Shown piece after piece: positions 3,615 through 25,586 of a stretch of DNA of 64,000 nucleotides. Location of the stretch: positions 1-64,000 of the forward strand of contig JAHBUS010000009.1 in assembly GCA_019637955.1 (NCBI GenBank), in the 5' to 3' direction. The position numbers were made by a program, and so were the translations under genes. The notes beneath the pieces were generated by a model. The model made no database searches, had not been told where the DNA came from, and worked only from the letters and a program-made list of their open reading frames with translations. The stretch comes from Pseudobdellovibrionaceae bacterium. Lineage in GTDB: Bacteria; Bdellovibrionota; Bdellovibrionia; Bdellovibrionales; Bdellovibrionaceae. Numbering within the stretch: position 1 is the stretch's first letter; each line of letters starts with the position of its first letter.

Positions 3615-4442
3615 GTGGGTTTGCGGATCAATACCAACGTGGCGTCTATCGCGGCTCAAAGGTCGCTGTCGCAATCGCAACGAAAACTCGAAGACAATTT
3701 GAAGCAGCTGTCCACGGGTAGCCGCTTTGCCGATCCCACGGCGGGTGCGGGCGATTTTGCGATTGCCGAAAAACTCCGCGGACAAATCAAAGGAACCAAT
3801 GCGGCGAGAATGAACGCGGAGAACGCGATCTCATTTGTGCAAATCGCCGAAGGCGGGCTGAGCGAGCAAAACAATATCTTGGTGCGCATGCGGGAGTTGT
3901 CTGTGCAAGCCGCAAGCGACACGTTCGGGGACGAAGAACGGGTCCTGCTGGACAAGGAGTTCACGCAGCTCAAGGATGAGCTCGACCGCATCGCCAACAC
4001 CACCCAATTTGGCTCTCACAAATTGCTCTCGGGCGAGAGCAAACATTTCGATTTTCAAGTGGGCGCGTACAAAGGCGAAGAGAACGTGATTCAATACGAC
4101 TCGAACACCAACACCACGGCGAGCGGTCTTGGCATTTCGGGTCTGTCGGTGAGCGATGCGGATGATGCGCGCGACTCGCTGGAGAGCATCGACGAAGCGC
4201 TGGGCGAGATCGCCAGTGCTCGCGCCGGTTTTGGCGCGGTTCAATCGCGCCTTGAAAGCGCGTCGGCGAACGCCGCCGTGCAATCCGAAAACTTGCAGGC
4301 CGCGCATTCGCGAATCGCCGACACCGATTTTGCCGAGGCTTCCGCCGAGATGTTCAAACAGCAAGCTCTGCAGCAATACCAAGTCGCCGTGCTCGCGCAG
4401 GCGAACCAATACCCGATGAGCGTGCTCAAGCTCATCGCTTAG
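3615..4442 (+). CDS. fliC: Flagellin 1 (divergent filament protein)
   Basis: A 275-residue flagellin, secreted through the flagellar export apparatus and polymerised into the filament. The D0/D1 regions are clear: MGLRINTNVASIAAQR at the start, LSTGSR near 36, SVQAASDTFGDEER near 96, and a C-terminal ENLQAAHSRIADTDFAEASAEM followed by QALQQYQVAVLAQANQ. There is almost no central variable domain, as in other short flagellins. The start is GTG, preceded by GGGAGG; an ATG two bases upstream is in another frame. It is odd in two places: the usual ADDAAGL motif reads ADPTAGAGDF, and the end is LIA, where flagellins 2 and 3 have LIG. It may be a minor or specialised filament subunit. Confidence 0.92.
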   Translation: MGLRINTNVASIAAQRSLSQSQRKLEDNLKQLSTGSRFADPTAGAGDFAIAEKLRGQIKGTNAARMNAENAISFVQIAEGGLSEQNNILVRMRELSVQAASDTFGDEERVLLDKEFTQLKDELDRIANTTQFGSHKLLSGESKHFDFQVGAYKGEENVIQYDSNTNTTASGLGISGLSVSDADDARDSLESIDEALGEIASARAGFGAVQSRLESASANAAVQSENLQAAHSRIADTDFAEASAEMFKQQALQQYQVAVLAQANQYPMSVLKLIA

Positions 4443-13688: not shown

Positions 13689-15062
13689 ATGTCAACGATT
13701 CGATTTTCGGGAATGGCCTCTGGTCTCCCGCCCAACATTGTCGAGCAGATCATGGAAGCCGAGCGCATCCCGATCAAGCAAATGACCGACAAGAAAGCCG
13801 GTGATGAGGACAAGCTCAAGCTTGTCTCCGATCTCGAGTCGAAAATTTCCGAAATTCCCAAATCGCTCTCGGAATTGGTGAGCGTTCGCGGTTTTCAAAA
13901 CAATAAGCTCACGTCCGGCGCGCCCGACATTATCAACGGCGTTGTTGACCCTGAATCGGCGATTCCAGGTTCATGGCAGGTCGAAGTGTTGCAGCTGGCG
14001 CAGAAGCCCGGCGCGATTTCGAACGGATTTCCGGACAAAGACAAAACCGAAATGGGCGTCGGGTATATCAAGTTCAAAACTCCCGATGGCGTCAAAGAAG
14101 TTTATATCAATGGCGAAGGCGGCGGTTCGACACTCGAAGGCGTCGCCAATGCGATCAATCGCAGCAACTACGGCTTGCGCGCATCCGTCATGAATGACCG
14201 CTCGGATAAAGACAATCCGTTCCGCCTGATGATTTCGGGATTGGCGACGGGCGACGACATGCAAATCGAGTTTCCGACCATCTATCTTCTCGATGGCGAC
14301 CAGGATTTTCATTTCGACAAATCGCACCCCGCGCAGAACGCGAAAATCAAAGTCGACGGCTTTGAAATTGAGGTTCCGGAAAACACGGTGAAAGACATCA
14401 TTCCCGGCGTGAATCTCGAACTCAAGCAGGCCGCCCCCGGCAAGGCGATCGCGATCAACGTGAAAGAAGACTACGAAGTCATCAGCGGAAAAATTAAGAC
14501 GTTCGTGGATGCCTACAACGGAGCGCTCAGTTGGATTCAAGGGCAGGCCAAGCTGTCAAAAGACCGCTCGGGCCGTGAGCGCCTCGGCCCTTTGGGCGGC
14601 GACGGAATGCTTCGGACCGTCGAGAACGCGCTTCGCCGCACGATCCAGAGCCCGCAGATGGGAACGGGGAGCGACGTTCAACGCGCCAACGAACTCGGCA
14701 TCGAGTTCAACCGCAACGGAACGCTCAACTTCAGTCAGGACAAATTCAACAAAGCACTCACGTCCAATCCCAAGGGAGTGAGCGCGTTTCTTCGCGGAGA
14801 CAACTTCGCGACCGGATTCGTGCCCACCGTGAGACGCGAAATGATGAATCTCACCAATGCGGCCTACGGCCCGCTTTCGACTCGCAAACGCGGGATCGAA
14901 CAGCGGATCAAAACCGCCGACCAGCGCATCGAGCGCAAAGAGAACGAGCTGGTCAAAAAAGAAGAGTCGTTAAGACGAAAGTTTTCGGATCTTGAAACCA
15001 AAATGTCGAAGCTGCAGCAGCAAGGCGCGGCGCTCGGCGGTGGGGCTAAGCAACAAGGTTAA
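13689..15062 (+). CDS. fliD: Flagellar filament cap protein FliD (HAP2)
   Basis: A 457-residue filament cap, which sits at the filament tip and folds incoming flagellin. The N-terminus has the family signature MSTIRFSGMASGLPPNIVEQIM, residues 90-240 hold the central domains (WQVEVLQLAQKPGA; ANAINRSNYGLRASVMND), and the C-terminal part (YNGALSWIQGQ, LGPLGGDGMLR, ELGIEFNRNGTLNF) ends in a coiled coil (390-440). The length is normal for the family. It is followed at 17 bases by fliS and belongs to a fliD-fliS-fliT-like unit. The 150-base leader contains a weak sigma-54-like element at 13585-13600. Confidence 0.94.
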   Translation: MSTIRFSGMASGLPPNIVEQIMEAERIPIKQMTDKKAGDEDKLKLVSDLESKISEIPKSLSELVSVRGFQNNKLTSGAPDIINGVVDPESAIPGSWQVEVLQLAQKPGAISNGFPDKDKTEMGVGYIKFKTPDGVKEVYINGEGGGSTLEGVANAINRSNYGLRASVMNDRSDKDNPFRLMISGLATGDDMQIEFPTIYLLDGDQDFHFDKSHPAQNAKIKVDGFEIEVPENTVKDIIPGVNLELKQAAPGKAIAINVKEDYEVISGKIKTFVDAYNGALSWIQGQAKLSKDRSGRERLGPLGGDGMLRTVENALRRTIQSPQMGTGSDVQRANELGIEFNRNGTLNFSQDKFNKALTSNPKGVSAFLRGDNFATGFVPTVRREMMNLTNAAYGPLSTRKRGIEQRIKTADQRIERKENELVKKEESLRRKFSDLETKMSKLQQQGAALGGGAKQQG

Positions 15063-15079
15063 CACGGGAGTAGGGACAG

Positions 15080-15472
15080 ATGAGTCATCCGTATCAGAAG
15101 TACAAGCAAACCCAGGTCTCGAGCGCAAGCCGCGAGAAACTTCTTTTAATGATGTACGAGGGGGCGATTAAGTTCACCAAGCTCGCCATCAAAGCGGCCG
15201 AAGAGAAAAACATCCACGACCGTTGCGTGAATTTGGGTCGCGCCTACGACATCGTCATGGAGCTCAACAACACGCTCGACCACAACGTGGGCGGCGACAT
15301 CTCGAGGCAGCTCGAGCAGCTCTACATGTTCATCACCGATCAGTACACCCAAGCCAACATCAGCGGGAACCCCGAGCCTCTGCGCAATGCGTGCAAGGTT
15401 TTGGAGACTTTGCATGAAGGTTGGAAGGGCGCCGTCGAAAAATTGAAAAAAAATAATGAAGGTACACCCTAG
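15080..15472 (+). CDS. fliS: Flagellin export chaperone FliS
   Basis: A 130-residue cytoplasmic chaperone that binds the flagellin C-terminus before export. Family features: YQKYKQTQVSSASREKLLLM with the phrase MMYEGAIKFTKLA, followed by four helices (NLGRAYDIVMELNNTLD; LEQLYMFITDQYTQANI). The length is normal. GGGAGTAGGG precedes the ATG. It is placed between fliD and a second small chaperone, as in most flagellar operons. Confidence 0.94.
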   Translation: MSHPYQKYKQTQVSSASREKLLLMMYEGAIKFTKLAIKAAEEKNIHDRCVNLGRAYDIVMELNNTLDHNVGGDISRQLEQLYMFITDQYTQANISGNPEPLRNACKVLETLHEGWKGAVEKLKKNNEGTP

Positions 15473-15483
15473 GAGGGGTCAAC

Positions 15484-15903
15484 ATGCTCAGAATCATCTC
15501 GCTGCTCAACCAGAAAAATCACTACCTCGAGAAGTTCTACTCGCTGAACGAGAATGAAATTCTTAATTTTTCGGCAGGCAATTTTGACCAACTCGAAGAC
15601 TTCTACCAAACCCGCGAGAAGATTCTCGAGATGGTTAAGTATCTCGATCAAGAACTCGACAAGGCGCAAAACCTGGTGACCAATCAGGTGACCACCGAGC
15701 AGCGCCGTGAGCTGCGCGAAGCCCTCGCGGTCAAAGACGAGTACGTCAGCCGTATTTTGTCGCAAGATCTCGAGATTCTGGCGTGCATCGAGTCGGCCAA
15801 ATCCAACATCATCCGCGAACTGCAAGACCTGCGCAAAACCAAGCGCGCCGTGAGCGGTTACAAATCCAATCTCAAGAATCATCAGTTAGACGAAGAGGCT
15901 TAA
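15484..15903 (+). CDS. FliT/FlgN-like flagellar chaperone
   Basis: A 139-residue, all-helical coiled-coil protein (LNQKNHYLEKFYSLNENEIL, then RREKILEM-like and KRAVSGYKSNLKN stretches). It starts 11 bases after fliS behind GGAGGGG. Size, composition and position match FliT or FlgN export chaperones for the cap or hook-junction proteins. Sequence conservation in this family is low, so the exact partner cannot be read. A terminator follows directly, closing the fliD unit. Confidence 0.72.
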   Translation: MLRIISLLNQKNHYLEKFYSLNENEILNFSAGNFDQLEDFYQTREKILEMVKYLDQELDKAQNLVTNQVTTEQRRELREALAVKDEYVSRILSQDLEILACIESAKSNIIRELQDLRKTKRAVSGYKSNLKNHQLDEEA

Positions 15904-15979: not shown

Positions 15980-16013
15980 ACATCCGTTCATGGCCGACTC
16001 CACAATTAAACGG

Positions 16014-17177
16014 ATGAAAACACTCGCACTTTCACTGACAGTCGTGGCCGGTCTTCTCGTTTTGAATGCCTGCCAAAGTTCAACGCCCAAAGCGCAGCCT
16101 CCGGCGGAGCAGGATCCGAACCTGAATGCGTCGATGCAGAACCTCAAGCTGCAAATGGACCAGTTGCTACCCACGTTGTTGAATGCACGCGAGTTCAGAG
16201 CCCCCGAGAATCAGGCGTCAATTGCGGCGCGCCTGCGCACGCTCGAGCGCGTCTCGAACAACGTGACCCACTCCACGGCGATCAAAGACGAAAATGCGAC
16301 CTTAGCGTTCTTGTCCAAAGGTTTTCACGATGATATCCGCCGTTCACGTGAGGCTTTCGAGCAGGGAAAAAAAGACTACGCCCGCACCAGCCTGCTCAAC
16401 ACGGGCGCATACTGCATTGAGTGCCACACCCGGACGAATTCGGGCCCGAGCTTTCAAACCAACGAGTTCCAGCAATCGCTGACCTTGCTGCAGCCTCTCG
16501 ACCGCGCCGAGTACTTGGTGGCCACGCGACAATTCGACGCGGCCTTGAAGGATCTCGATCAAGTCCTGAAGGGCGGCATCAAAGAGGGCGTGACGGTTTT
16601 TGACTTGGAAAAAGCCGCGCACATGGCGCTGCAGATCACCGTTCGCTTTCAGAATGACCCCGCCAAAGGTCTGGCGATTATCGACGACATTCTTCAGGCT
16701 CCGAATGTGCCGTTTAATATGAAAACGAACGCGCAGCTTTGGAAGGCCGGACTGCAAAACTGGAAAAAAGAAAAGAAGCGCGAAGTCCGCGATCCTTTAA
16801 AGAAAAGCCGCGAACTGGTGGACCATGCGCTCAAAAAACAAAAGGGCCGTGATGACCGCGCGAGCGATGTCGAAATGATGCGCGTGCAGTCACTCCTGTA
16901 CCCGGTCTTGAACACCGAAAAGAAGCCCGCTCGTGCCGGCGAAGCCCTCTACCTGATGGGACAGGCCTACGAGTCGGTCCGCGACCTGTCGCTCTCGTCT
17001 TTGCATGAAGAGTATTACGAGGCGTGCATTCGCAAGGTGCCGCATAGTGAATGGTCCAAGCGCTGTTTTAAAAAATTCGAAGAGAGCACCCTGATCGGCT
17101 ATTCCGGCAGCGGCGGCACTTCGATCCCGGCCGATGTTCAGGGCAAGCTCAAAGAGCTGAAAGATCTGGCGCTCTAG
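16014..17177 (+). CDS. c-type haem lipoprotein
   Basis: A 387-residue lipoprotein. The signal segment ends in the lipobox LNAC (Cys20). A single haem-binding motif CIECH lies at 134-138, so one covalent haem c is expected at the outer face of a membrane. The rest is helical and charged, with TPR-like spacing in places (AEYLVATRQFDAALKDLDQVL), and has no other recognised domain. The in-frame ATG at 15990 would add MADSTIKR; the later ATG gives a more standard signal peptide. It has its own terminator and stands between the filament genes and the glycosyltransferase operon. Electron-transfer partner unknown. Confidence 0.7.
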   Translation: MKTLALSLTVVAGLLVLNACQSSTPKAQPPAEQDPNLNASMQNLKLQMDQLLPTLLNAREFRAPENQASIAARLRTLERVSNNVTHSTAIKDENATLAFLSKGFHDDIRRSREAFEQGKKDYARTSLLNTGAYCIECHTRTNSGPSFQTNEFQQSLTLLQPLDRAEYLVATRQFDAALKDLDQVLKGGIKEGVTVFDLEKAAHMALQITVRFQNDPAKGLAIIDDILQAPNVPFNMKTNAQLWKAGLQNWKKEKKREVRDPLKKSRELVDHALKKQKGRDDRASDVEMMRVQSLLYPVLNTEKKPARAGEALYLMGQAYESVRDLSLSSLHEEYYEACIRKVPHSEWSKRCFKKFEESTLIGYSGSGGTSIPADVQGKLKELKDLAL

Positions 17178-17303: not shown

Positions 17304-17319
17304 TGGCAACAAAGTTGCT
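17304..17319 (+). promoter_or_regulatory. Sigma-54 (RpoN) -24/-12 promoter of the TPR/GT9 operon
   Basis: TGGCAACAAAGTTGCT fits the sigma-54 consensus TGGCAYR-N4-TTGCW at nearly all positions, with the obligatory GG and GC exactly 10 bases apart. Transcription would begin about 12 bases later, some 30 bases before the ATG at 17361. Sigma-54 promoters need an AAA+ enhancer-binding activator; none is encoded in this operon. Confidence 0.75.
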
Positions 17320-17360
17320 CCTTCAGTTTTCTGGACACTCGTGAAGGAGTCACAACACAC

Positions 17361-18455
17361 ATGCAAGAATTCAATTCAGGACTTCAGTCGAAACGCTTCG
17401 TTCTGCAAGACAATCAGCCCGCACAAGCCCCGGCGGCAGACGCGAAAGAACAGTTTCTCATTCGACCTGAAGGCCGTCAGCAGCGAACCGAGGCGATTTT
17501 TGCCTTCGATCAAGAACATCAAAAAAATGCCCGTGTGATCAAGCCGGTCGGTCCCTCCAAAGACCGCCCCACCATCGCGACGCTGTTGATGAACGCCGAA
17601 ACTCTTTTGAAAGCGGGCGAGCGGGCCGCCGCGGCTCACCTTTGCCGCCAAGCTCTGTTCTTGGATTCGCGTCATCCCGAAGCGATTCGCAAGATGATCC
17701 GCACCCTCGGCAATCAAGAATGGGATCTGGCGCAGCGCAAGTCCCTGCACAAAGCCCTCGTTGAGATCGAGCCCACGTTCCAGAATTTTTGCGATTTCGG
17801 CCGTATGCTCGAAACCACGGGCGACTTGGATGGCGCCCTGGAGGCGTTTTTCGAGGCGAACCTGCGAGTGGGCGAAGAAGGACCGTCGCTCTTCGACATT
17901 TTCAAACACATGGGAAATATCTACGTCCGTAAAGGCGACTTCGAGTCCGCGGAGGAGTTTTATCACAAGGCTTACACGCTGAATCCCGATTCGGACGTTC
18001 TGCAGGTCAATCTGGGAACTCTGTCGGTGCAACAGTCCGACTGGGGGCGCGCCACCGAGCGTTTCCGTAAGGCCGTCGAGCTGAATCCTTTGAACGACAA
18101 GGCGTGGGTGGGGCTGGGTCTCTGCCACCAGCAAGTGGGCGACGCGCACTTGGCGCAGGCCACGCTCGAGAACGCCTTGGACATCGCGCCTTCGAACCGC
18201 ACGGCGGTTCACTTGATGTCGAGTTGGTCGTTCGATCACGGCCGCGTTTCCGCCGCGATCGTGCGCATGCAAGACTATCTTTCGACGCAGGAGTCGGACA
18301 TCGAGATGTCGCTCGTGTTGATCCATATGTTCTGTCACGAACGTAAGTACGCGATGGCCGAGATCGAATTGGAACGCGCGCTCTGTTGGGCTCCGGGACG
18401 CGAGGACTTGATTGACCTGCAGACCCGCGTTCGCGAACTTCGGGAGCAAAATTGA
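17361..18455 (+). CDS. TPR-repeat protein, first gene of the GT9 operon
   Basis: A 364-residue cytoplasmic protein (no signal peptide). Residues 1-65 are a polar leader; from about 70 to 350 it is built of tetratricopeptide repeats, for example MGNIYVRKGDFESAEEFYHKAYTLNPDS and the next unit with NLGTLSVQQSDWGRATERFRKA, then AWVGLGLCHQQVGDAHLAQATL. TPR scaffolds bind peptides. Followed by GT9 genes and lying near flagellins, it may present a protein substrate to the glycosyltransferases, as the TPR part of Caulobacter FlmG does for flagellin; this is inference. AAGGAG is 12 bases upstream of the ATG, a long spacing. Confidence 0.78.
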   Translation: MQEFNSGLQSKRFVLQDNQPAQAPAADAKEQFLIRPEGRQQRTEAIFAFDQEHQKNARVIKPVGPSKDRPTIATLLMNAETLLKAGERAAAAHLCRQALFLDSRHPEAIRKMIRTLGNQEWDLAQRKSLHKALVEIEPTFQNFCDFGRMLETTGDLDGALEAFFEANLRVGEEGPSLFDIFKHMGNIYVRKGDFESAEEFYHKAYTLNPDSDVLQVNLGTLSVQQSDWGRATERFRKAVELNPLNDKAWVGLGLCHQQVGDAHLAQATLENALDIAPSNRTAVHLMSSWSFDHGRVSAAIVRMQDYLSTQESDIEMSLVLIHMFCHERKYAMAEIELERALCWAPGREDLIDLQTRVRELREQN

Positions 18456-19051
18456 TCGAGTGGAAGCTGAATGACAAGTCGTACACGTGGGCGCGTCGTG
18501 AAGGACGCGCGTTGTGTTCGTCACGCGATCCGGTGAATGAAGCCGTCGCGTGGGTGTCGTCGCTCGGCCTCACCGGCAAAGAAACTGAAATCGCCGTCGT
18601 CGGTGTCGGCACCGCCCAGCACCTGTTCGAGCTGCGACGCCAGCACCCGAAGATCCGCCTCTTGATCTTCGATTCGCACGAAATCGATTTCTCGTCGGCT
18701 CCCGCCGAGACCGCTTCGGTTTGGGATGATTTCCGTCAGACCAACGTGCAATTGCACCAAGGAACCGAAGCGACGGACTTCGCCGCGATCACTCTCGTGC
18801 GCGGCCCGGTCGTCCTGTTCCGCTCGGCGTGCTCGGCCACGGACTTCGAGATTCACGCCCGCCTTCTCGGGCAGGACGCCCGCCTGTTTGCCAAGGCCTG
18901 CGAGACATTTCACTTTCCCGAGCTCAAGTCGGCGGCCCAGGCCGTTCCCGCAAATCTCGCCGTGAATATCAAGTCGTTGGCGCAGGGTCAATTGCCTCCC
19001 TCTTCGACCGAAGAAAAGATGCTTTCGGTTTTGCGGGAGTTGGTACGATGA
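18452..19051 (+). CDS. Unknown protein with Rossmann-like segment, coupled to TPR and GT9 genes
   Basis: A 199-residue soluble protein starting at TTG, overlapping the TPR gene stop by four bases (translational coupling) with GGGAG upstream. The stretch EIAVVGVGTAQHLFELRRQ followed by RLLIFDSHE has the rhythm of a nucleotide-binding beta-alpha-beta unit. It recalls the N-terminal part of Maf-type motility accessory (flagellin-modifying) proteins, which read G-x-G-x-x-H-x-x-x-L...P...I-x-V-F-E, but similarity is faint. I do not assign a function. Its tight coupling to both neighbours suggests it works with them. Confidence 0.65.
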   Translation: MIEWKLNDKSYTWARREGRALCSSRDPVNEAVAWVSSLGLTGKETEIAVVGVGTAQHLFELRRQHPKIRLLIFDSHEIDFSSAPAETASVWDDFRQTNVQLHQGTEATDFAAITLVRGPVVLFRSACSATDFEIHARLLGQDARLFAKACETFHFPELKSAAQAVPANLAVNIKSLAQGQLPPSSTEEKMLSVLRELVR

Positions 19052-20601
19052 AGATTCTGGTCGTCTCGCTTCTTCGTATCGGAGACTTCTTTCAACAGAT
19101 TCCGCACTTGCGGGCGCTGGGTGAAAACCATGAAGTTCACGTCTTGGTGAACGAGTCGCTCCGCCCGGTGACCGAATTGTTTCCGGAGTTTCGCTACCAC
19201 TTCTTTCCGCGCGAACGCCTGCAGACGTTTTTGACTTCGCCCAACTGCAATCTGCTCGCGGCGTTCGAAGAACTGCGCGGCCTTTGCGAGGCGCTTCGTC
19301 TTGAGAGCTTTCAAGAGATCCAAAACTGGACGCACAACTTTTTGTCGACGCGTTTAATGGATCTGTTGCAAGCTCCCGTGAAGACCGGCGCTCAATTTCA
19401 AGACGGCGAGTTGGTGCGCGCCCGGGGCGCCGAGACTTACCTGAACGACGTTTGGGGGCCTTCTCGTCGTCCGAGCTTTCAGTGGATGGACGCCGTGCAA
19501 ATGGCGGTCAAGTCTCCGCGCGCGGGCCTGCTCGGCGCGGACAACCACCGACACGGACCCGTTTACCTGCAAATTTTCACCAGCGACGAGAAAAAGAATT
19601 GGCCGCAGGACCGCTGGCTTCAGCTCGCGCGTGACATCCGGGAGCTTGGCGAAGACGTGCGTATTCTGTGCGCGCCTTTCGAACTCGAAAAGATGCTCGT
19701 CGATTTTTATGCCTTCCGCGTGGAAGTTCTGGATTGGCGGGATCTGCAGCAGGCCTTGAGCCGCGCCAAACTCGTGATCTCGGGTGACACCAGCATCGTG
19801 CACCTCGCCGCGCTCTGCCGCGCGCCGATTCTGGGTCTTTACCTGGGTTCGGCGGATCCCTACAAAACGGCGCCCCGTCAGTCGGGAGCGCGCGTGTTGT
19901 GGCCCGAAGTGGCCTGCGCCCCTTGCCGTCATTCGGAGATGTGCGGTCAGCGCCGTCATCTCTGCTCGGAATCTTTGAACGTACAAACAGTTTACAACGA
20001 GGTGGTGGCCATGATGGGACACGGAACGAAATCGATCAAGATCTCGAACGTTCGCGGCTTCGAAGTTCTTCCCGGAATATCGGCGCGGCCATTGCTCGCC
20101 GAAGCGGGACAGGGGCTTGAGCAAATCTGGGCACAGCTCGTTTGGGAATTTTACCTCGGGCGCGACCATGAGCAGAACGTGGCCCCCTACGGGAGTGCCG
20201 CCCGTTTGATGACCCAGAAAGTGGTGTCGACCAAGAGTTTGCGCGCTTGGACGGAGACGCTGAACCACAAGCTTGAGAAGACCGACGAAATTCTCGAAGA
20301 TCTGAGCTTTCTCATCTGGAACGATTTGAAAACCATTGGCACCCAGAACGACGGAATGGCCAGCGACACGCAGGTGCGCCTCTTAACGGAGTCGTTGCGT
20401 CTTCTTTGGCCCAAGACGGATTTCTTTCACCGTTTGGTCGATTCGATGCAGGTGAGCGACGAGAATCGTTTCTTAAAACTGAAGAACCGCAAAGAGGCGC
20501 TGCGCGAAGCGACCGAACTGGTTCTGATCCAAAAAAACTTAACACGCCGAATGACCCAAGAACTATCAGAGAGAGAGGATAACCATGGCGCAAGAGCTTG
20601 A
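19048..20601 (+). CDS. GT9-family (heptosyltransferase-like) glycosyltransferase A
   Basis: A 517-residue GT-B fold glycosyltransferase. The acceptor-domain start MKILVVSLLRIGDFFQQIPHL and the donor-domain segment LVISGDTSIVHLAALCRAPILG with LYLGSADPYKTAP are characteristic of family 9 (ADP-heptose transferases and relatives). A cysteine cluster CAPCRHSEMCGQ.RHLC (about 290-310) is also common in the family. The roughly 170 residues after it are extra compared with standard WaaC/WaaF (about 350) and contain helices near the end. ATG overlaps the previous stop (ATGA). Sugar donor and acceptor cannot be read; filament protein or lipopolysaccharide are the options. Confidence 0.82.
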   Translation: MKILVVSLLRIGDFFQQIPHLRALGENHEVHVLVNESLRPVTELFPEFRYHFFPRERLQTFLTSPNCNLLAAFEELRGLCEALRLESFQEIQNWTHNFLSTRLMDLLQAPVKTGAQFQDGELVRARGAETYLNDVWGPSRRPSFQWMDAVQMAVKSPRAGLLGADNHRHGPVYLQIFTSDEKKNWPQDRWLQLARDIRELGEDVRILCAPFELEKMLVDFYAFRVEVLDWRDLQQALSRAKLVISGDTSIVHLAALCRAPILGLYLGSADPYKTAPRQSGARVLWPEVACAPCRHSEMCGQRRHLCSESLNVQTVYNEVVAMMGHGTKSIKISNVRGFEVLPGISARPLLAEAGQGLEQIWAQLVWEFYLGRDHEQNVAPYGSAARLMTQKVVSTKSLRAWTETLNHKLEKTDEILEDLSFLIWNDLKTIGTQNDGMASDTQVRLLTESLRLLWPKTDFFHRLVDSMQVSDENRFLKLKNRKEALREATELVLIQKNLTRRMTQELSEREDNHGARA

Positions 20602-20758
20602 AGGTTACTTGAAAACCGCATTGAAACGCCTGGAGAAAGCCACCGAAGAGGTGATGAAAACCCAGGGTCTTAATGAAGACACCGAGATCTTGAAACTTTT
20701 AACCGAAATCGTTCGCGAACAGGTGCCCCATGAAAATTCTGATTCTGCAACTCGCTAG
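20585..20758 (+). CDS. Small protein between two GT9 genes (57 aa)
   Basis: A 57-residue frame overlapping the end of glycosyltransferase A by 17 bases and the start of glycosyltransferase B by 29 bases. The sequence AQELEGYLKTALKRLEKATE and further helix VMKTQGLNEDTEILKLLTEI is amphipathic. GAGAGGAT lies a few bases before the ATG. The compact overlaps and a proper binding site make it a credible gene; it may be a helical adaptor or only a translational coupler. No family recognised. Confidence 0.6.
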   Translation: MAQELEGYLKTALKRLEKATEEVMKTQGLNEDTEILKLLTEIVREQVPHENSDSATR

Positions 20759-22202
20759 ACTTGGCGATATCTATCTGAGCTGGCCCGCGATCCGCGCCCT
20801 GAAGCGCCAGAACCCCGACGCCAAGATCACGCTGCTCACGCGCGAGAAATTCGCTCCCGCCGCCCAAGGGCTCGAGGCGGTGGACGAGGTGATCACCTTG
20901 CCGGTGAAAGAGGTCCTCGTGCCTCTGGTGCAAGACAACATGGACGCCGCGAGCGCGCATGCTCACTTGAAGACCTTTATCCATGAGCTCAAGGCCCGCG
21001 GCTTCGACAAAGTCGTGAATTTCTCTTTTTCACCGGTGAGTTCGTACATCACGCACCTCGTGCAGCCCGATTCGTCGCAGGTGGCTGGTTACTCGCGCAC
21101 CGAGGATGGATTCTTGGCGATTCCCGACGACATGAGCGCTTACTTCTACGCGCAAGTCGGACCCGGCCGCGCCAACCGATTTCACTTGGCCGAAATTTTC
21201 GGCACGCTCTGCACGGCCGATCTGACCGAGCAGGATTGGGCGGCACCCAAGCTGGCGAAGTACGACACCAAAATTGAAGGCCGCTTCATCGCGTTTCACG
21301 TGGGAGCGAGCGAGGGCCATAAGACCCTGACTCCCGAAAAATGGGTCTCAATCTTGAGCCAGTTCAAAACGCAGAATGTGGGTGCCAGCGTCGCTTTGAT
21401 CGGCGCGGCCAATGAGCGCGCGATTGCCGACACGATTTTGGCCTCGGTTTCTGGGTTGCAGATTCACGACTTCGTTGGCCGCACCTCGCTCACCGAGACG
21501 TTTTCGATCGTCGCCCAGGCCGCCCTTTTGGTGGGAGCCGACAGCGCGCCCATGCACATGGCCAGCCTCACGGGAACCAAGTGCTTGAACTTGAGCGTTG
21601 GCTTGGTGAGTTTTTGGGAGACCGGTCCGCGCGCCAAGGGCAGTTTGGTGATGCGCGCAAACACCGAGACGGATCTGGTATCGGATAAAGTCGCCCGCGC
21701 GATCAAGGCCGCCGTGAATGGGGAGCGTCCCGAAATCGGCATCATCCAAGCGCAAGCCGGAACGCCCAGTTACTCGGGACTGTTTCCGAAAGAAGCCGAA
21801 TTTCAGTGGAAACTTTTGCAGGCCGTCTATCAAGGCGATCCCTTCCCCGAGCCCGTGAATCCGCATTTCTTCGAGGCGCAAAAACAGCTGATCGAAGTGA
21901 ACGGATTCTTAATCGAGCAGATGACCGCGATTCAAGGCGGCGCTTCGATCGACGACAAAGCCCCGCTGATCGAACGCGGCGAAGAGGTGATCGGGGCCAT
22001 CGCCAAGATCGTTCCCTCCTGGGCGCCGGTGATCCGTTGGTACCAAACCGAGAAGATCCGCATTCCCCCCGGCGACACGACCATGGTCCTGGGCCGCACG
22101 CTCGAGATCCAAAACCTTTTTCAACAGGTTTTGTTGGTTTACGCTGATATGCAAGCGAACATGGCCGCCAATCAGGCGTCGGCCGAAAGCGAGGGACCTT
22201 GA
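20730..22202 (+). CDS. GT9-family glycosyltransferase B
   Basis: A 490-residue GT-B glycosyltransferase. It begins MKILILQLARLGDIYLSWPA and carries the family 9 donor-binding segment ALLVGADSAPMHMASLTGTKCLNLS; GASEGHKTLTPEKW near residue 190 is the usual HVGAS...K..P..KW block. As in glycosyltransferase A, there is a C-terminal extension (about 340-490), which is helical and of unknown role. Two GT9 genes in one coupled run point to addition of two sugars or two linkages. Its stop overlaps the next TTG start. Confidence 0.83.
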   Translation: MKILILQLARLGDIYLSWPAIRALKRQNPDAKITLLTREKFAPAAQGLEAVDEVITLPVKEVLVPLVQDNMDAASAHAHLKTFIHELKARGFDKVVNFSFSPVSSYITHLVQPDSSQVAGYSRTEDGFLAIPDDMSAYFYAQVGPGRANRFHLAEIFGTLCTADLTEQDWAAPKLAKYDTKIEGRFIAFHVGASEGHKTLTPEKWVSILSQFKTQNVGASVALIGAANERAIADTILASVSGLQIHDFVGRTSLTETFSIVAQAALLVGADSAPMHMASLTGTKCLNLSVGLVSFWETGPRAKGSLVMRANTETDLVSDKVARAIKAAVNGERPEIGIIQAQAGTPSYSGLFPKEAEFQWKLLQAVYQGDPFPEPVNPHFFEAQKQLIEVNGFLIEQMTAIQGGASIDDKAPLIERGEEVIGAIAKIVPSWAPVIRWYQTEKIRIPPGDTTMVLGRTLEIQNLFQQVLLVYADMQANMAANQASAESEGP

Positions 22203-22903
22203 AATCAACCGTCATCAATCGCGGCGAACTGGAGCAAATCTATTTTGGCTGTGACAATCTCAAGGATTTGATCGCGCAGGTCGAAGCGGAGTTTCAAAAG
22301 CGCGGCGAGGTCGTTTGCCAGATTATCATCAACGACATGGCCCTGCACGAGAGCGACGAGGTGAAACTGGGCGCGACACTCATGACCGATATCGCGAAGG
22401 TCGAAGTTCGCTCCGAGAAGCCGTCGGCGCTCTTGATCGATATCGTTCACAACTGGGAGCTGGAGCTTCCGAAAATGGTGACCTTGTCCGACAATTTGGC
22501 TCAAGGGATCCGTTTGAAAGGCCCCGAGGGGCAGTACACGTCTTTCGTCCAGCTCATCGATTCGTGCCAATTTTTAATCGAGAGTCTCGTCTCGATGGAC
22601 TCGATCATCGACACCGAGTTGTTTTTAGACCGCCAGGTCTGGATGCAAAACGAGAAAATGATGACCGAAGCCGTGGGGCAAGCCCTGAGCGCCTTCGAGA
22701 AGAAGGACTTCGCCATTCTCGCCGACGTTCTGGAGTATGATATAGCCAATGCCCTGCAGGCATGGTTTGATCTCATGAAGGATCTGGGCGGACGTCTCAG
22801 AGCGGAGAATGATCAGGACAGCCAACATCTCACAGACCGAATCTTCAAAAAGTCCGCAGGGGATCATTCTGTGGATAACGCCGGGGAGACCGGCGCTCGC
22901 TGA
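22199..22903 (+). CDS. Unknown cytoplasmic protein coupled to GT9 gene
   Basis: A 234-residue protein starting at TTG 22199, which overlaps the previous stop by four bases and is preceded by GAGGGA. No signal peptide or membrane segment. The N-terminal half is beta-alpha in character (GEVVCQIIINDMALHESDEV), the C-terminal half helical and acidic. No family recognised. Its last 95 bases overlap the start of the sensor kinase gene, an unusually long overlap, so either the kinase start is later than annotated or the two are strongly coupled. Confidence 0.65.
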   Translation: MKSTVINRGELEQIYFGCDNLKDLIAQVEAEFQKRGEVVCQIIINDMALHESDEVKLGATLMTDIAKVEVRSEKPSALLIDIVHNWELELPKMVTLSDNLAQGIRLKGPEGQYTSFVQLIDSCQFLIESLVSMDSIIDTELFLDRQVWMQNEKMMTEAVGQALSAFEKKDFAILADVLEYDIANALQAWFDLMKDLGGRLRAENDQDSQHLTDRIFKKSAGDHSVDNAGETGAR

Positions 22904-24842
22904 CCGTCTCGAGAACGAACCCGTCTTCAGCGGATGGGAATGGGTCTATTCGAAGAATGCCTTGAACGAGCCGGCTCTGAAGCAGGCTCGTTTAATTTTG
23001 GTCGATGCCAGTCTGGATCCCGAGCTTGAAATCTTGCGCGAGATCCGCGAGCGGGCGTCCAGCTCGATCCGCGTGCTGGTTCAGGATGTCGACAGCCCGG
23101 GAATCTTACGCAAGGCCGTCAACCGGGGCGAGGTTTTCTCGGTGATCGGCTGGCCTTTGGATTACGATCTTCTCAAGGAGTCCCTGCGCGAAGCGGTGAC
23201 CGAGGCGCAGCTTTTGGACTCGCGTTTGCGTCTCTTGAAAGAATCGACGCGGCAAAACCGCGAGCTCGAAAAACTGACCGCCAGTCTCGAGAGCCTTGTC
23301 GAAGAGCGCACGCACCACATTCAAATTTCGAAAGAGTTCGAAGAGGAGAAGGTCTCGCGCATCCGCGGACTCATCCGCTTCATTCAAGAGCTCTCGGGCA
23401 GCTCGTCGTTTGAAGATTTGATCGATCTGCTCCGGCGCGACTTGCGTTCGTTTCACCAGGTGCATGACCCCGTCATGATTTATGAGATCGACTCTCGCGG
23501 GCCGCAGATCGTGTTTTGGCGCAACTCCATGATGCAAACCCGTCCGTGGCGGCACGCCATGGCCTTCGTTCCGCACATCCATTTGCAAGATCCCGAGATG
23601 AGCCGCCGCTTGGCCAATTACTTCGCGCGTCCTTTCGGCAAAGCCCTGGTGATTCCGATCGACGTCAGCACGCAAGACGCGGTTCCCGAGCCCACCTTTC
23701 AGCTCGTTCTTGAAAATTCGCTACCCGAAAGCGACGTCTCGCAGGTTTTGGATTTTTGCCTCGAGCGGCTGCAGCCGCTTTCGACCGCGATCGAACGCCT
23801 GCGCATGGAGTCCGAGCTGACGCATTTCTCGTACCGTTGGGAAAAAACTTTCGACGGTCTCAAGGATCCGATCGCGATCATCGACCGGTCGGACCGGGTG
23901 CTGCGTTCGAACAAGAAATTCTCGGAGCAATTGATCAAAGATAGTTGCTTCAAGAGCTTCGCCGGCAAAGACGAGCGATGTGAAGGCTGCCCGGTGCCGA
24001 AGGTGCTGATGACGGGCCAGGCGGGCAAAGGCGAGATCCGGCGCCATGGGCGGGTTTACGAGGTGCACTCGTACCCGATCTCGCTCGTGCCGGGTGGAAA
24101 GCCCACCAACGTCGTCAATCAGTATGTCGATCAGTCTCAGGCGCGCGAGATCTACATGCGTTTGCTTCAGAGCGAGAAAATGGGCGCCCTCGGCCTGCTC
24201 GCGGGCAACATCGCGCACGAACTCAACAACCCACTGACGGGTCTGCGCTCTCTCGCGCAGGTGCTGCGCATGGGACTCGCGGCCGAAACGCAGACTGCGC
24301 AAGACCTGGGCGAGATCGAAAAGGCGTCCGAGCGCTGCCAAAAAATCATCCGCAATCTTCTCGACTTCGTTCATCACGACGAGAAAAATCTGCAGGACGT
24401 GCGTCTTGACGACCTCGTCGAGAAGACGCTGCCGTTCTTGAAGACGGCGATGCGCATGCACCGTTTGAACAAAGAGCTGACGACCGCCGGTCTTTCGGTG
24501 CGCGCCGAACCACAGTTGTTGCAGCAGGTGATTTTCAATTTGGTTCACAATGCCTGCCAGGCCATGGAAAAACAGGGAACTCTGACGATCGAAACCGAAG
24601 ATCGCGGCGCGTTCGTTCGTCTTTGGGTGCGCGACACCGGTCCGGGAATTCCCGAGGGCATCCGCACACAGATCTTCGAGCCGTTCTTCACAACCAAACG
24701 TGAAGGCAGTGGCACGGGTCTGGGTTTAAGTCTGTCGAAAGAAATCGTCGAGAGTTTTTCGGGACGAATTGGGGTCGAATCGGTGGAGGGCGAGGGCGCT
24801 TCATTCTGGTTTGAACTTCCGCGCTTGGAGGAAAAAGCATGA
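22809..24842 (+). CDS. Soluble sensor histidine kinase with pseudo-receiver and PAS-like domains
   Basis: A 677-residue kinase without membrane segments. Residues 18-130 resemble a receiver domain (LILVDASLD with Asp66), but the conserved Lys-Pro reads Trp-Pro at 115-116, so it is probably not phosphorylated normally. A coiled coil (135-180) leads to a GAF-like region (190-330) and a PAS-like region (340-445) with a CFKSFAGKDERCEGC cysteine set that could bind metal or sense redox state. HisKA has His470 in GNIAHELNNPLTGLRS; the ATPase has Asn581, DTGPG (609-613) and GTGLGL (635-640). It is coupled by ATGA to the response regulator gene and is its likely partner. Confidence 0.88.
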   Translation: MIRTANISQTESSKSPQGIILWITPGRPALADRLENEPVFSGWEWVYSKNALNEPALKQARLILVDASLDPELEILREIRERASSSIRVLVQDVDSPGILRKAVNRGEVFSVIGWPLDYDLLKESLREAVTEAQLLDSRLRLLKESTRQNRELEKLTASLESLVEERTHHIQISKEFEEEKVSRIRGLIRFIQELSGSSSFEDLIDLLRRDLRSFHQVHDPVMIYEIDSRGPQIVFWRNSMMQTRPWRHAMAFVPHIHLQDPEMSRRLANYFARPFGKALVIPIDVSTQDAVPEPTFQLVLENSLPESDVSQVLDFCLERLQPLSTAIERLRMESELTHFSYRWEKTFDGLKDPIAIIDRSDRVLRSNKKFSEQLIKDSCFKSFAGKDERCEGCPVPKVLMTGQAGKGEIRRHGRVYEVHSYPISLVPGGKPTNVVNQYVDQSQAREIYMRLLQSEKMGALGLLAGNIAHELNNPLTGLRSLAQVLRMGLAAETQTAQDLGEIEKASERCQKIIRNLLDFVHHDEKNLQDVRLDDLVEKTLPFLKTAMRMHRLNKELTTAGLSVRAEPQLLQQVIFNLVHNACQAMEKQGTLTIETEDRGAFVRLWVRDTGPGIPEGIRTQIFEPFFTTKREGSGTGLGLSLSKEIVESFSGRIGVESVEGEGASFWFELPRLEEKA

Positions 24843-25237
24843 GATTTTTGATCATCGACGATGAACCGCTCGTGCGCCGTTCCCTGGGACGGGCGCTCAG
24901 TGCAAAAGGCCACGAGGTGAGTGAGGCCGTGGACGGGCAAGAGGGGCTTGTGCGCTGGCGGGAAAAACGCCCCGACGTCGTTTTTCTTGATGTCCTCATG
25001 CCTGGACTCACGGGTCCGCAGGTCCTCACCGAGCTGGAAGACGATTTGAAGTCGCGCACCACCATCATTTTGATTTCGGCTTTTTCGGGTGAGCACAATC
25101 CCGAAACGGCCCAAAGGCTCGGCGCGGACTTGTTTGTTCCCAAACCATTTGAAGATATATTCGCCTTAGTTAAAATAGCGGAAGACCTGCGAACCAATGG
25201 ATCGAAAGATGGCGGCGAAAAAAGAAACCCAAACTGA
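24839..25237 (+). CDS. Single-domain response regulator (CheY-like)
   Basis: A 132-residue receiver domain without an output domain. Acidic pocket Asp7-Asp8 (FLIIDDE), phospho-acceptor Asp51 (VVFLDVLMPGLTGP), Ser80 and Lys102 (FVPKPF) are all present, so it should be phosphorylated, most likely by the adjacent kinase. Without its own output domain it must act by protein binding or phosphotransfer. The ATG overlaps the kinase stop by four bases. Confidence 0.9.
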   Translation: MRFLIIDDEPLVRRSLGRALSAKGHEVSEAVDGQEGLVRWREKRPDVVFLDVLMPGLTGPQVLTELEDDLKSRTTIILISAFSGEHNPETAQRLGADLFVPKPFEDIFALVKIAEDLRTNGSKDGGEKRNPN

Positions 25238-25586
25238 TATCAAGAAAGTGCAGCCCTACCCCTTCGGCATCGACATCGTCCTGGCCGAGGGAGCGCCGCC
25301 CGTGCGGGGTTTCGTGCACAAATTGACCGACGTGGGTTTTTTAATGCGCACGGCGAATGAGCACCATTTTAAAGTCGGCGACAACCATCAGGCCCGCTTC
25401 GAACTGCCGGTGGTGCATCTCCTCTTCGATGAGCCCGTCAAGGTCATCAAGACCTACGACGCCGTGGAAGACGTCAAAAACAAAGAGCTCAAGAAGAACT
25501 TCACGATCGAACTGCATTTTCGATCGCTGCCGCCAAAAAAACGCGAAGACATCTTGAAATTCCTGGCCCTCATCGGGCAGAAGTAA
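25197..25586 (+). CDS. PilZ-like domain protein
   Basis: A 129-residue protein overlapping the response regulator gene by 41 bases; a second in-frame ATG at 25209 is also possible. The pattern YPFGIDIVLAEG...GFVHKLTDVGFLMRT and the later ending (FTIELHFRSLPPKKREDILK) looks like a PilZ-type beta barrel followed by a short helix, as seen in many Bdellovibrio-like proteins. However, the c-di-GMP contacts RxxxR and (D/N)xSxxG are not clearly present, so it may be a non-binding variant. The role is inferred only from fold-like pattern and location after a two-component pair. Confidence 0.6.
   Translation: MDRKMAAKKETQTDIKKVQPYPFGIDIVLAEGAPPVRGFVHKLTDVGFLMRTANEHHFKVGDNHQARFELPVVHLLFDEPVKVIKTYDAVEDVKNKELKKNFTIELHFRSLPPKKREDILKFLALIGQK

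Follow-up and report, generated by a model that had tools for sequence, protein, structure and literature searches.

The window, meaning the whole stretch of DNA that was analysed, comprises 64 kb (G000:C14:1-64000, in plus-strand coordinates). It carries flagellin genes at 3615, 4825 and 10478. Further flagellin genes are found on another contig (C9:137884-139628), and the genome has eight flagellin matches in total. A fliD-fliS-fliT anchor, which is conserved in relatives, lies on the plus strand at 13689..15903, with fliD (FliD domains in Pfam) at 13689, fliS at 15080 and a fliT-like gene at 15484. A probable lipoprotein (15990-17177, plus strand; LNAC) with a haem-type CxxCH motif (CIECH) is encoded between fliT and the TPR gene and precedes the sigma-54 box described below. 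It occupies the same spot in 9 of 54 genomes.

Downstream of the anchor, nine plus-strand genes run from 17361 to 25586. The first encodes a TPR protein of 364 aa (17361..18455; Pfam TPR families). It is followed by u199 (18452..19051), which has a TTG start and resembles a stand-alone Maf N-terminal domain without a catalytic domain, as judged from PF20157 matches in orthologues, hhalign and the AlphaFold (AF2) fold. GT9a (19048..20601, 517 aa) and GT9b (20730..22202, 490 aa) are family 9 glycosyltransferases recognised by PF01075, and the helical 57-aa protein u57 (20585..20758) is encoded between them. The run continues with u234 (22199..22903), a sensor histidine kinase with a receiver-like N-terminus (22809..24842; HisKA and HATPase_c in Pfam), a single-domain response receiver without output domain (24839..25237; Response_reg, 2.8e-23) and an optional PilZ-like protein (25197..25586). 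The rsmD gene starts three bases past the latter. An earlier note on this DNA, made from the sequence alone, had described overlaps or very short gaps at most joints of the run. Indeed, all eight joints overlap, by 4, 4, 17, 29, 4, 95, 4 and 41 bases. The same note's naming of the TPR protein, the two transferases, the kinase and the receiver agrees with the Pfam matches, and its view that scaffold and transferases are separate proteins is confirmed by their distinct reading frames (17361-18455 and 19048-22202). The PilZ label fared less well. The window protein itself has no PF07238 match, but 6 of 24 orthologues match PilZ (best 1.7e-7). As for u57, it would fall below a 60-aa threshold in an open reading frame listing. 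It is regarded as a real gene because it is kept beside GT9b at every locus examined, lying between GT9a and GT9b and preceding GT9b also where GT9a is missing.

A sigma-54 (-24/-12) box, TGGCAACAAAGTTGCT, is located on the plus strand at 17304..17319, 41 bases before the start of the TPR gene, and is the sole exact TGGCAN6TTGCW match in the 64 kb on both strands. Within 240 bases around the TPR start, boxes in relatives were scored at eight informative positions in addition to the GG/GC core. Near this start, 50 of 52 loci have a box scoring 6 or 7, at least the score of the window box, while mononucleotide shuffles reach a score of 6 in 0.2% of cases. No equally good box was found before six other genes of the cluster. 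A few of the relatives' boxes lie at or past the assigned TPR start, which probably reflects the choice of start. Since the box is conserved, rarely arises in shuffles and is accompanied by an RpoN gene in the genome, sigma-54 transcription of the block, as claimed in the earlier note, is well supported at the sequence level.

The two-component control proposed for the run has its support in the co-conservation of kinase and receiver with the block. The receiver lacks an output domain and no sigma-54 activator gene is present within the block. Because the receiver has no AAA+ output domain, the activator must be encoded elsewhere. The N-terminus of the kinase (22809-24842) is a degenerate receiver-like domain. 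A relative of this kinase (L115:9718-11733) opens with an apparently intact receiver domain (VDDD, SDQRMPP), which suggests that an ancestral receiver has decayed in the window kinase. The AF2 model of u234 (mean pLDDT 92.7) has a beta-grasp-like N-terminus and a four-helix bundle. Its structure matches are generic four-helix bundles only, and no family was assigned by the structure search, in which a FliS chain appeared only at rank 50. The best natural PDB matches of the TPR protein are OGT/SPINDLY-type TPR superhelices. This match is generic and was therefore not counted as evidence of flagellin binding.

To follow the block in other genomes, 60 relatives were searched with GT9b, u234, FliD and flagellin, and profiles were used to annotate the loci together with their surroundings, in stretches of about 20 kb. 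In the resulting linkage table of 54 genomes, whose counts are lowered by contig breaks, the genes linked to fliD are TPR in 52 genomes, kinase in 44, receiver in 42, GT9b in 38, GT9a in 37, u199 in 36, u234 in 33 and PilZ in 20. The block thus follows fliD-fliS-fliT across the order, and the gene order is conserved far beyond chance. A scan of named genomes gave a similar picture: among 40 Bdellovibrionales-type loci of at least 14 kb, 39 have fliD, fliS, fliT and TPR, and 35 have u199 and GT9a. In variant form, the place behind fliD-fliS-fliT is also kept in other families of the phylum. Occurrence of the block in genomes without flagella, or always beside lipopolysaccharide (LPS) genes, had been named beforehand as speaking against a flagellar role; both were looked for and neither occurred. 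The one flagellum-less relative (G039, without flagellin and FliD) also lacks GT9b and u234 in these searches. G025 and G028 likewise lack FliD, in genomes that are merely 54% and 67% complete.

Parts of the block are lost in several lineages. In genus g3 (G002, G021, G027, G031, G034), the order is fliD-fliS-fliT-TPR-kinase-receiver-rsmD, with no space between TPR and kinase for u199, GT9a, u57, GT9b and u234. Moreover, u234 is absent from every g3 genome listed in the phylum search. Four other genomes (G011, G016, G017, G058) keep GT9b, and GT9a and u199 are not recognisable there. In a further five (G041, G048, G057, G043, G054), divergent proteins occupy the glycosyltransferase slot. In the loci L114, L116, L115, L118 and L119, the divergent proteins in this slot measure 348-492 aa and some have GT9-like starts. 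The R-x-G-D motif is not evident in some slot proteins, e.g., in G043, and they are possibly pseudo-enzymes or replaced functions. Overall, u199 tends to accompany GT9a, as u57 does GT9b, and what remains when the sugar part is lost is a core of TPR, kinase and receiver. As this core is kept where the GT9s are lost, it must have a second role of its own. In G018, the block is split between two contigs, fliD-fliS-fliT-TPR-u199-GT9a (L082) on one and GT9b-u234-kinase-PilZ-rsmD (L121) on the other, and neither break is at a contig end.

Across the phylum, 176 of 291 genomes have u234, and the arrangement varies between families. Family f18 has the order fliD-fliS-(fliT)-u199-GT9-GT9-u234-kinase-receiver with no TPR match, families f17 and f27 have TPR-GT9-u234, and f13 and f24 have TPR-u234 only. 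At the flagellin locus of the phylum, parts for acceptor binding and for sugar transfer are thus combined in different ways, retained or lost.

The two transferases score 51.3 and 43.1 bits against PF01075 (cut-off 22) and, judged by sequence, are members of GT9. They lie far below the NCBIfam cut-offs for the LPS heptosyltransferases I-III (HepI, HepII, HepIII). Both enzymes were aligned to WaaC (2gt1) and compared with 38-39 orthologues each. In GT9a, D13, K183 and D247 match the WaaC site and are invariant, and E212 and H252 match it and are near-invariant. In GT9b, R10, G12, D13, K198 and D271 are invariant and E229 also matches WaaC; H276 is read from the WaaC alignment and is outside the listed invariant set. 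These residues serve in catalysis or donor binding in the WaaC structures. Both enzymes keep the catalytic and donor-site set of WaaC. PDB profile matches of GT9b are WaaF (1psw), 3tov and WaaC (2gt1), and GT9a has a conserved motif of four cysteines (C290, C293, C299, C306). Eight further GT9 genes are present elsewhere in the genome. In the tree, GT9a and GT9b fall into supported clades apart from these eight, and the first GT9 of family f18 joins GT9a (99/97). The earlier note saw similar long C-terminal extensions on both enzymes, which was not borne out. GT9b does have a conserved extension of about 160 aa, but profile comparison of the two extensions gives a probability of 3.2%, and 13 of 39 GT9a orthologues have just 49-96 aa past the catalytic domain. 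A relationship of the extensions to the Maf C-terminal domain was considered as well and rejected (0.3% and 0.8%).

The window u199 has no Pfam match of its own. Of 37 orthologues, 17 match PF20157, the N-terminal domain of Maf (Maf_flag10_N), more than match any other family (best 3.4e-6, some over the cut-off); Methyltransf_25 matches 13 (best 7.2e-5). A whole-genome search of the 60 relatives placed 15 of 19 PF20157 matches at the u199 position. Across 291 genomes of the phylum, most matches are u199 loci or proteins of 620-710 aa from family f19. The f19 proteins carry PF01973 besides PF20157 and are true Maf proteins, and two of their genes lie directly upstream of fliC-fliD-fliS (L181, L184). 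Profile-profile comparison by hhalign of u199 with eight f19 Mafs gave a probability of 95.6% over 120 columns, spanning a DPxxEA motif ahead of the Rossmann core. The single control family, the Rossmann methyltransferase RsmD from the same loci, gave 1.2%. The best VIA match of the AF2 model of u199 (mean pLDDT 92.7) is the Magnetospirillum Maf 5mu5 (Z 10.0, rmsd 3.1, 136 aligned), tied with MnmC at 9.6. Foldseek lists spermidine synthases first, with no E-value below 0.001. PF01973, the MptE-like/Maf_flag10 catalytic domain, is absent from u199 and from the whole genome. Taken together, the profiles and the predicted fold point to homology of u199 with the Maf N-terminal domain, with good though not complete certainty. 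This identity is new here for a previously unassigned 199-aa protein. The role of the N-terminal domain in Maf has been stated as unclear (PMC11339370).

Outside the order, relatives of u199 occur in other settings too. A Deltaproteobacteria contig (L263, JAFDLS010000035.1, 1357-13524) encodes a PF13524 glycosyltransferase carrying TPR repeats, a GT9, a stand-alone Maf-N-like protein, a u234 homologue and fliT. The u199 homologue of this contig has 236 aa and a longer Maf-like N-terminus, and its gene lies between those for the GT9 and the u234 homologue; fliS and fliD adjoin on the other strand. On another contig (L260, JALVYZ010000104.1, 963-3852), the gene directly after a GT9 encodes a protein that begins like Maf-N and continues as a PF13524 glycosyltransferase.

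Regarding the sugar, a NeuB search of the genome returned one partial match of 31.6 bits (profile positions 53-232). Matches of this sort are seen in nearly all relatives, and this one is interpreted as a paralogue of the KdsA type. Where relatives have a clear NeuB, it reaches about 150-335 bits; such NeuBs are scattered, with no link to the block. A sole weak match would make the nonulosonic-acid route of the Maf and FlmG systems unlikely here. HldE domain I is over the cut-off in the genome. The same holds for nearly all relatives, among them the one without flagella, and for every relative of good quality; ADP-heptose synthesis is therefore not diagnostic as a co-occurrence marker. A heptose-type sugar from an ADP-heptose-type donor may nonetheless be what the GT9s use.

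As for the acceptor, Bdellovibrio flagellins have 274-282 aa and give single spots at 29-31 kDa (PMC2791853), so any glycan would be small. The published gels thus leave room for a small glycan without demonstrating it. Neither Ser/Thr content nor conserved sites of the flagellins proved informative as a marker of modification. The Ser/Thr content is higher in g3 flagellins, and the conserved sites, with one exception, occur there no less often than in the rest. The searchable literature holds no description of flagellin glycosylation in Bdellovibrio, and no work joining GT9, flagellin and TPR was found. For the HD100 genes bd0610-bd0621, mention is made of fliD (bd0611) and fliS (bd0612) only.

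The block is best read as a split cytoplasmic module for flagellin glycosylation that is transcribed by sigma-54 and translationally coupled, with a probability of roughly 0.72. In such a module, flagellin, and possibly other cargo of flagellar export, would be glycosylated while still in the cytoplasm. The acceptor would be brought or positioned by the TPR protein and by u199 as a stand-alone relative of Maf-N, and GT9a and GT9b would add one or more sugars from an ADP-heptose-type donor. The small proteins u57 and u234 may act as structural partners, and the kinase-receiver pair, with the PilZ-like protein in some genomes, would couple glycosylation to regulation. The TPR domain of FlmG binds flagellin in a two-hybrid assay (PMC7591256), and by analogy the TPR protein is proposed to be a flagellin-binding scaffold. 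TibC provides a precedent for cytoplasmic heptosylation of a protein (PMC4358343). The earlier note had named flagellin as one of several possible targets. This part is strengthened by the fliD-fliS-fliT linkage, the lack of the block in a genome without flagella, the likeness of u199 to Maf-N, the WaaC active-site residues of the GT9s and the true Maf at the flagellin locus of f19. Several observations weigh against it: the flagellin gels leave room for a small glycan at most, TPR, kinase and receiver persist without GT9s in g3, Ser/Thr content and conserved sites of the flagellins do not drop in g3, and u199 also resembles methyltransferases, with MnmC tied with 5mu5 in fold.

The likeness to methyltransferases raises the question of whether u199, instead of being a Maf-N relative, might be a small methyltransferase with flagellin or the sugar as its substrate. 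Its methyltransferase matches in Pfam and PDB are weak, and its fold neighbours, spermidine synthase and MnmC, are Rossmann proteins. However, the profile match to Maf takes in the DPxxEA motif before the Rossmann core, and the 37 members of the family are diverse, with 25% mean column identity and few invariant residues. The longer Maf-like N-terminus in L263 and the fusion to a PF13524 glycosyltransferase in L260 also make a methyltransferase quite unlikely. A different target of the transferases is conceivable as well, as the GT9 family is that of the LPS heptosyltransferases and the flagella of Bdellovibrio are sheathed by outer membrane (PMC2791853). The GT9s might thus serve the synthesis of an LPS core or of a sheath glycolipid, their location reflecting co-regulation only. 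The best-scoring models for both are those of LPS heptosyltransferases, but at scores far below the cut-off. The genome has its eight other GT9 genes, outside the GT9a and GT9b clades, and no LPS genes adjoin the block at any locus viewed. With a Maf-N-like partner and fliS/fliT as direct neighbours of the block, an LPS product, which the earlier note had also allowed for, or a sheath glycolipid is unlikely.

The persistence of the core bears on yet another explanation, in which TPR, kinase and receiver read flagellin export, as a regulatory module or a checkpoint, and the GT9s have been added in particular lineages and do something minor or different. Indeed, the three are kept without recognisable GT9s in g3, G041, G048 and G057, and other families (L159, L160) retain u234 and TPR but no GT9. 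In most genomes, however, the GT9s are present and translationally coupled, and their catalytic residues are kept. TPR profile scores also fall where the GT9s are missing, a trend that is confounded by phylogeny. A purely regulatory core therefore appears very unlikely as the main function, and flagellin glycosylation remains the preferred reading.

Several known systems resemble the block. The O-glycosyltransferase Maf (motility accessory factor, 5mu5) shares with it an N-terminal domain, matched by u199, and a place at flagellin loci; in family f19 of the phylum, the same flagellin locus is occupied by a true Maf. In contrast to Maf, the genome and u199 lack PF01973, so the block is not a Maf, and catalysis would fall to separate GT9s. 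No convincing NeuB is present, so nonulosonic acid is improbable. With the FlmG system of Caulobacter, the block has in common the pairing of TPR and glycosyltransferase functions close to flagellar genes, several flagellin paralogues and flagellins of about 275 aa. In FlmG, TPR and glycosyltransferase are fused, whereas here they are separate proteins and the transferases are GT9s; the block is thus not a FlmG. Moreover, a Maf-N-like protein is added and NeuB at full score was not found in the genome. The autotransporter heptosyltransferases TibC/AAH are, like the GT9s, relatives of the WaaC heptosyltransferase, and they act on protein. TibC has a four-cysteine iron finger (PMC4358343), and a conserved four-cysteine motif is also found in GT9a, but the spacing C-x2-C-x5-C-x6-C differs from that of Cys339, 342, 358 and 370 in TibC (PMC4358343). 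The genomic setting of TibC/AAH differs from that of the block, and TibC is absent among the PDB sequence matches listed for GT9a and GT9b. WaaC and WaaF share the fold, the R-x-G-D motif and the donor-site Lys, Glu, Asp-Thr/Ser and His with the two enzymes. GT9a and GT9b differ from them by falling below the HepI/II/III cut-offs and by their C-terminal extensions, flagellar locus and partner proteins.

It is tentatively suggested, at slightly less than even odds, that the block represents a third architecture beside Maf and FlmG. In this architecture, a TPR scaffold and a stand-alone Maf-N protein would recognise the acceptor and two GT9s would catalyse the transfer, all as separate, interchangeable proteins, with a heptose-type sugar instead of nonulosonic acid. 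If so, the Maf N-terminal domain would recognise flagellin as a portable module, one that outside the order is also attached to other glycosyltransferases. Furthermore, the locus separates the Maf-N domain and the TPR protein from the catalytic enzymes, and their roles could be tested part by part in a genetically tractable predator. Genus g3 may, we presume, represent the epibiotic predators; in that case, the loss of the sugar part would offer a natural comparison for the function of the sheathed flagellum and the style of predation.
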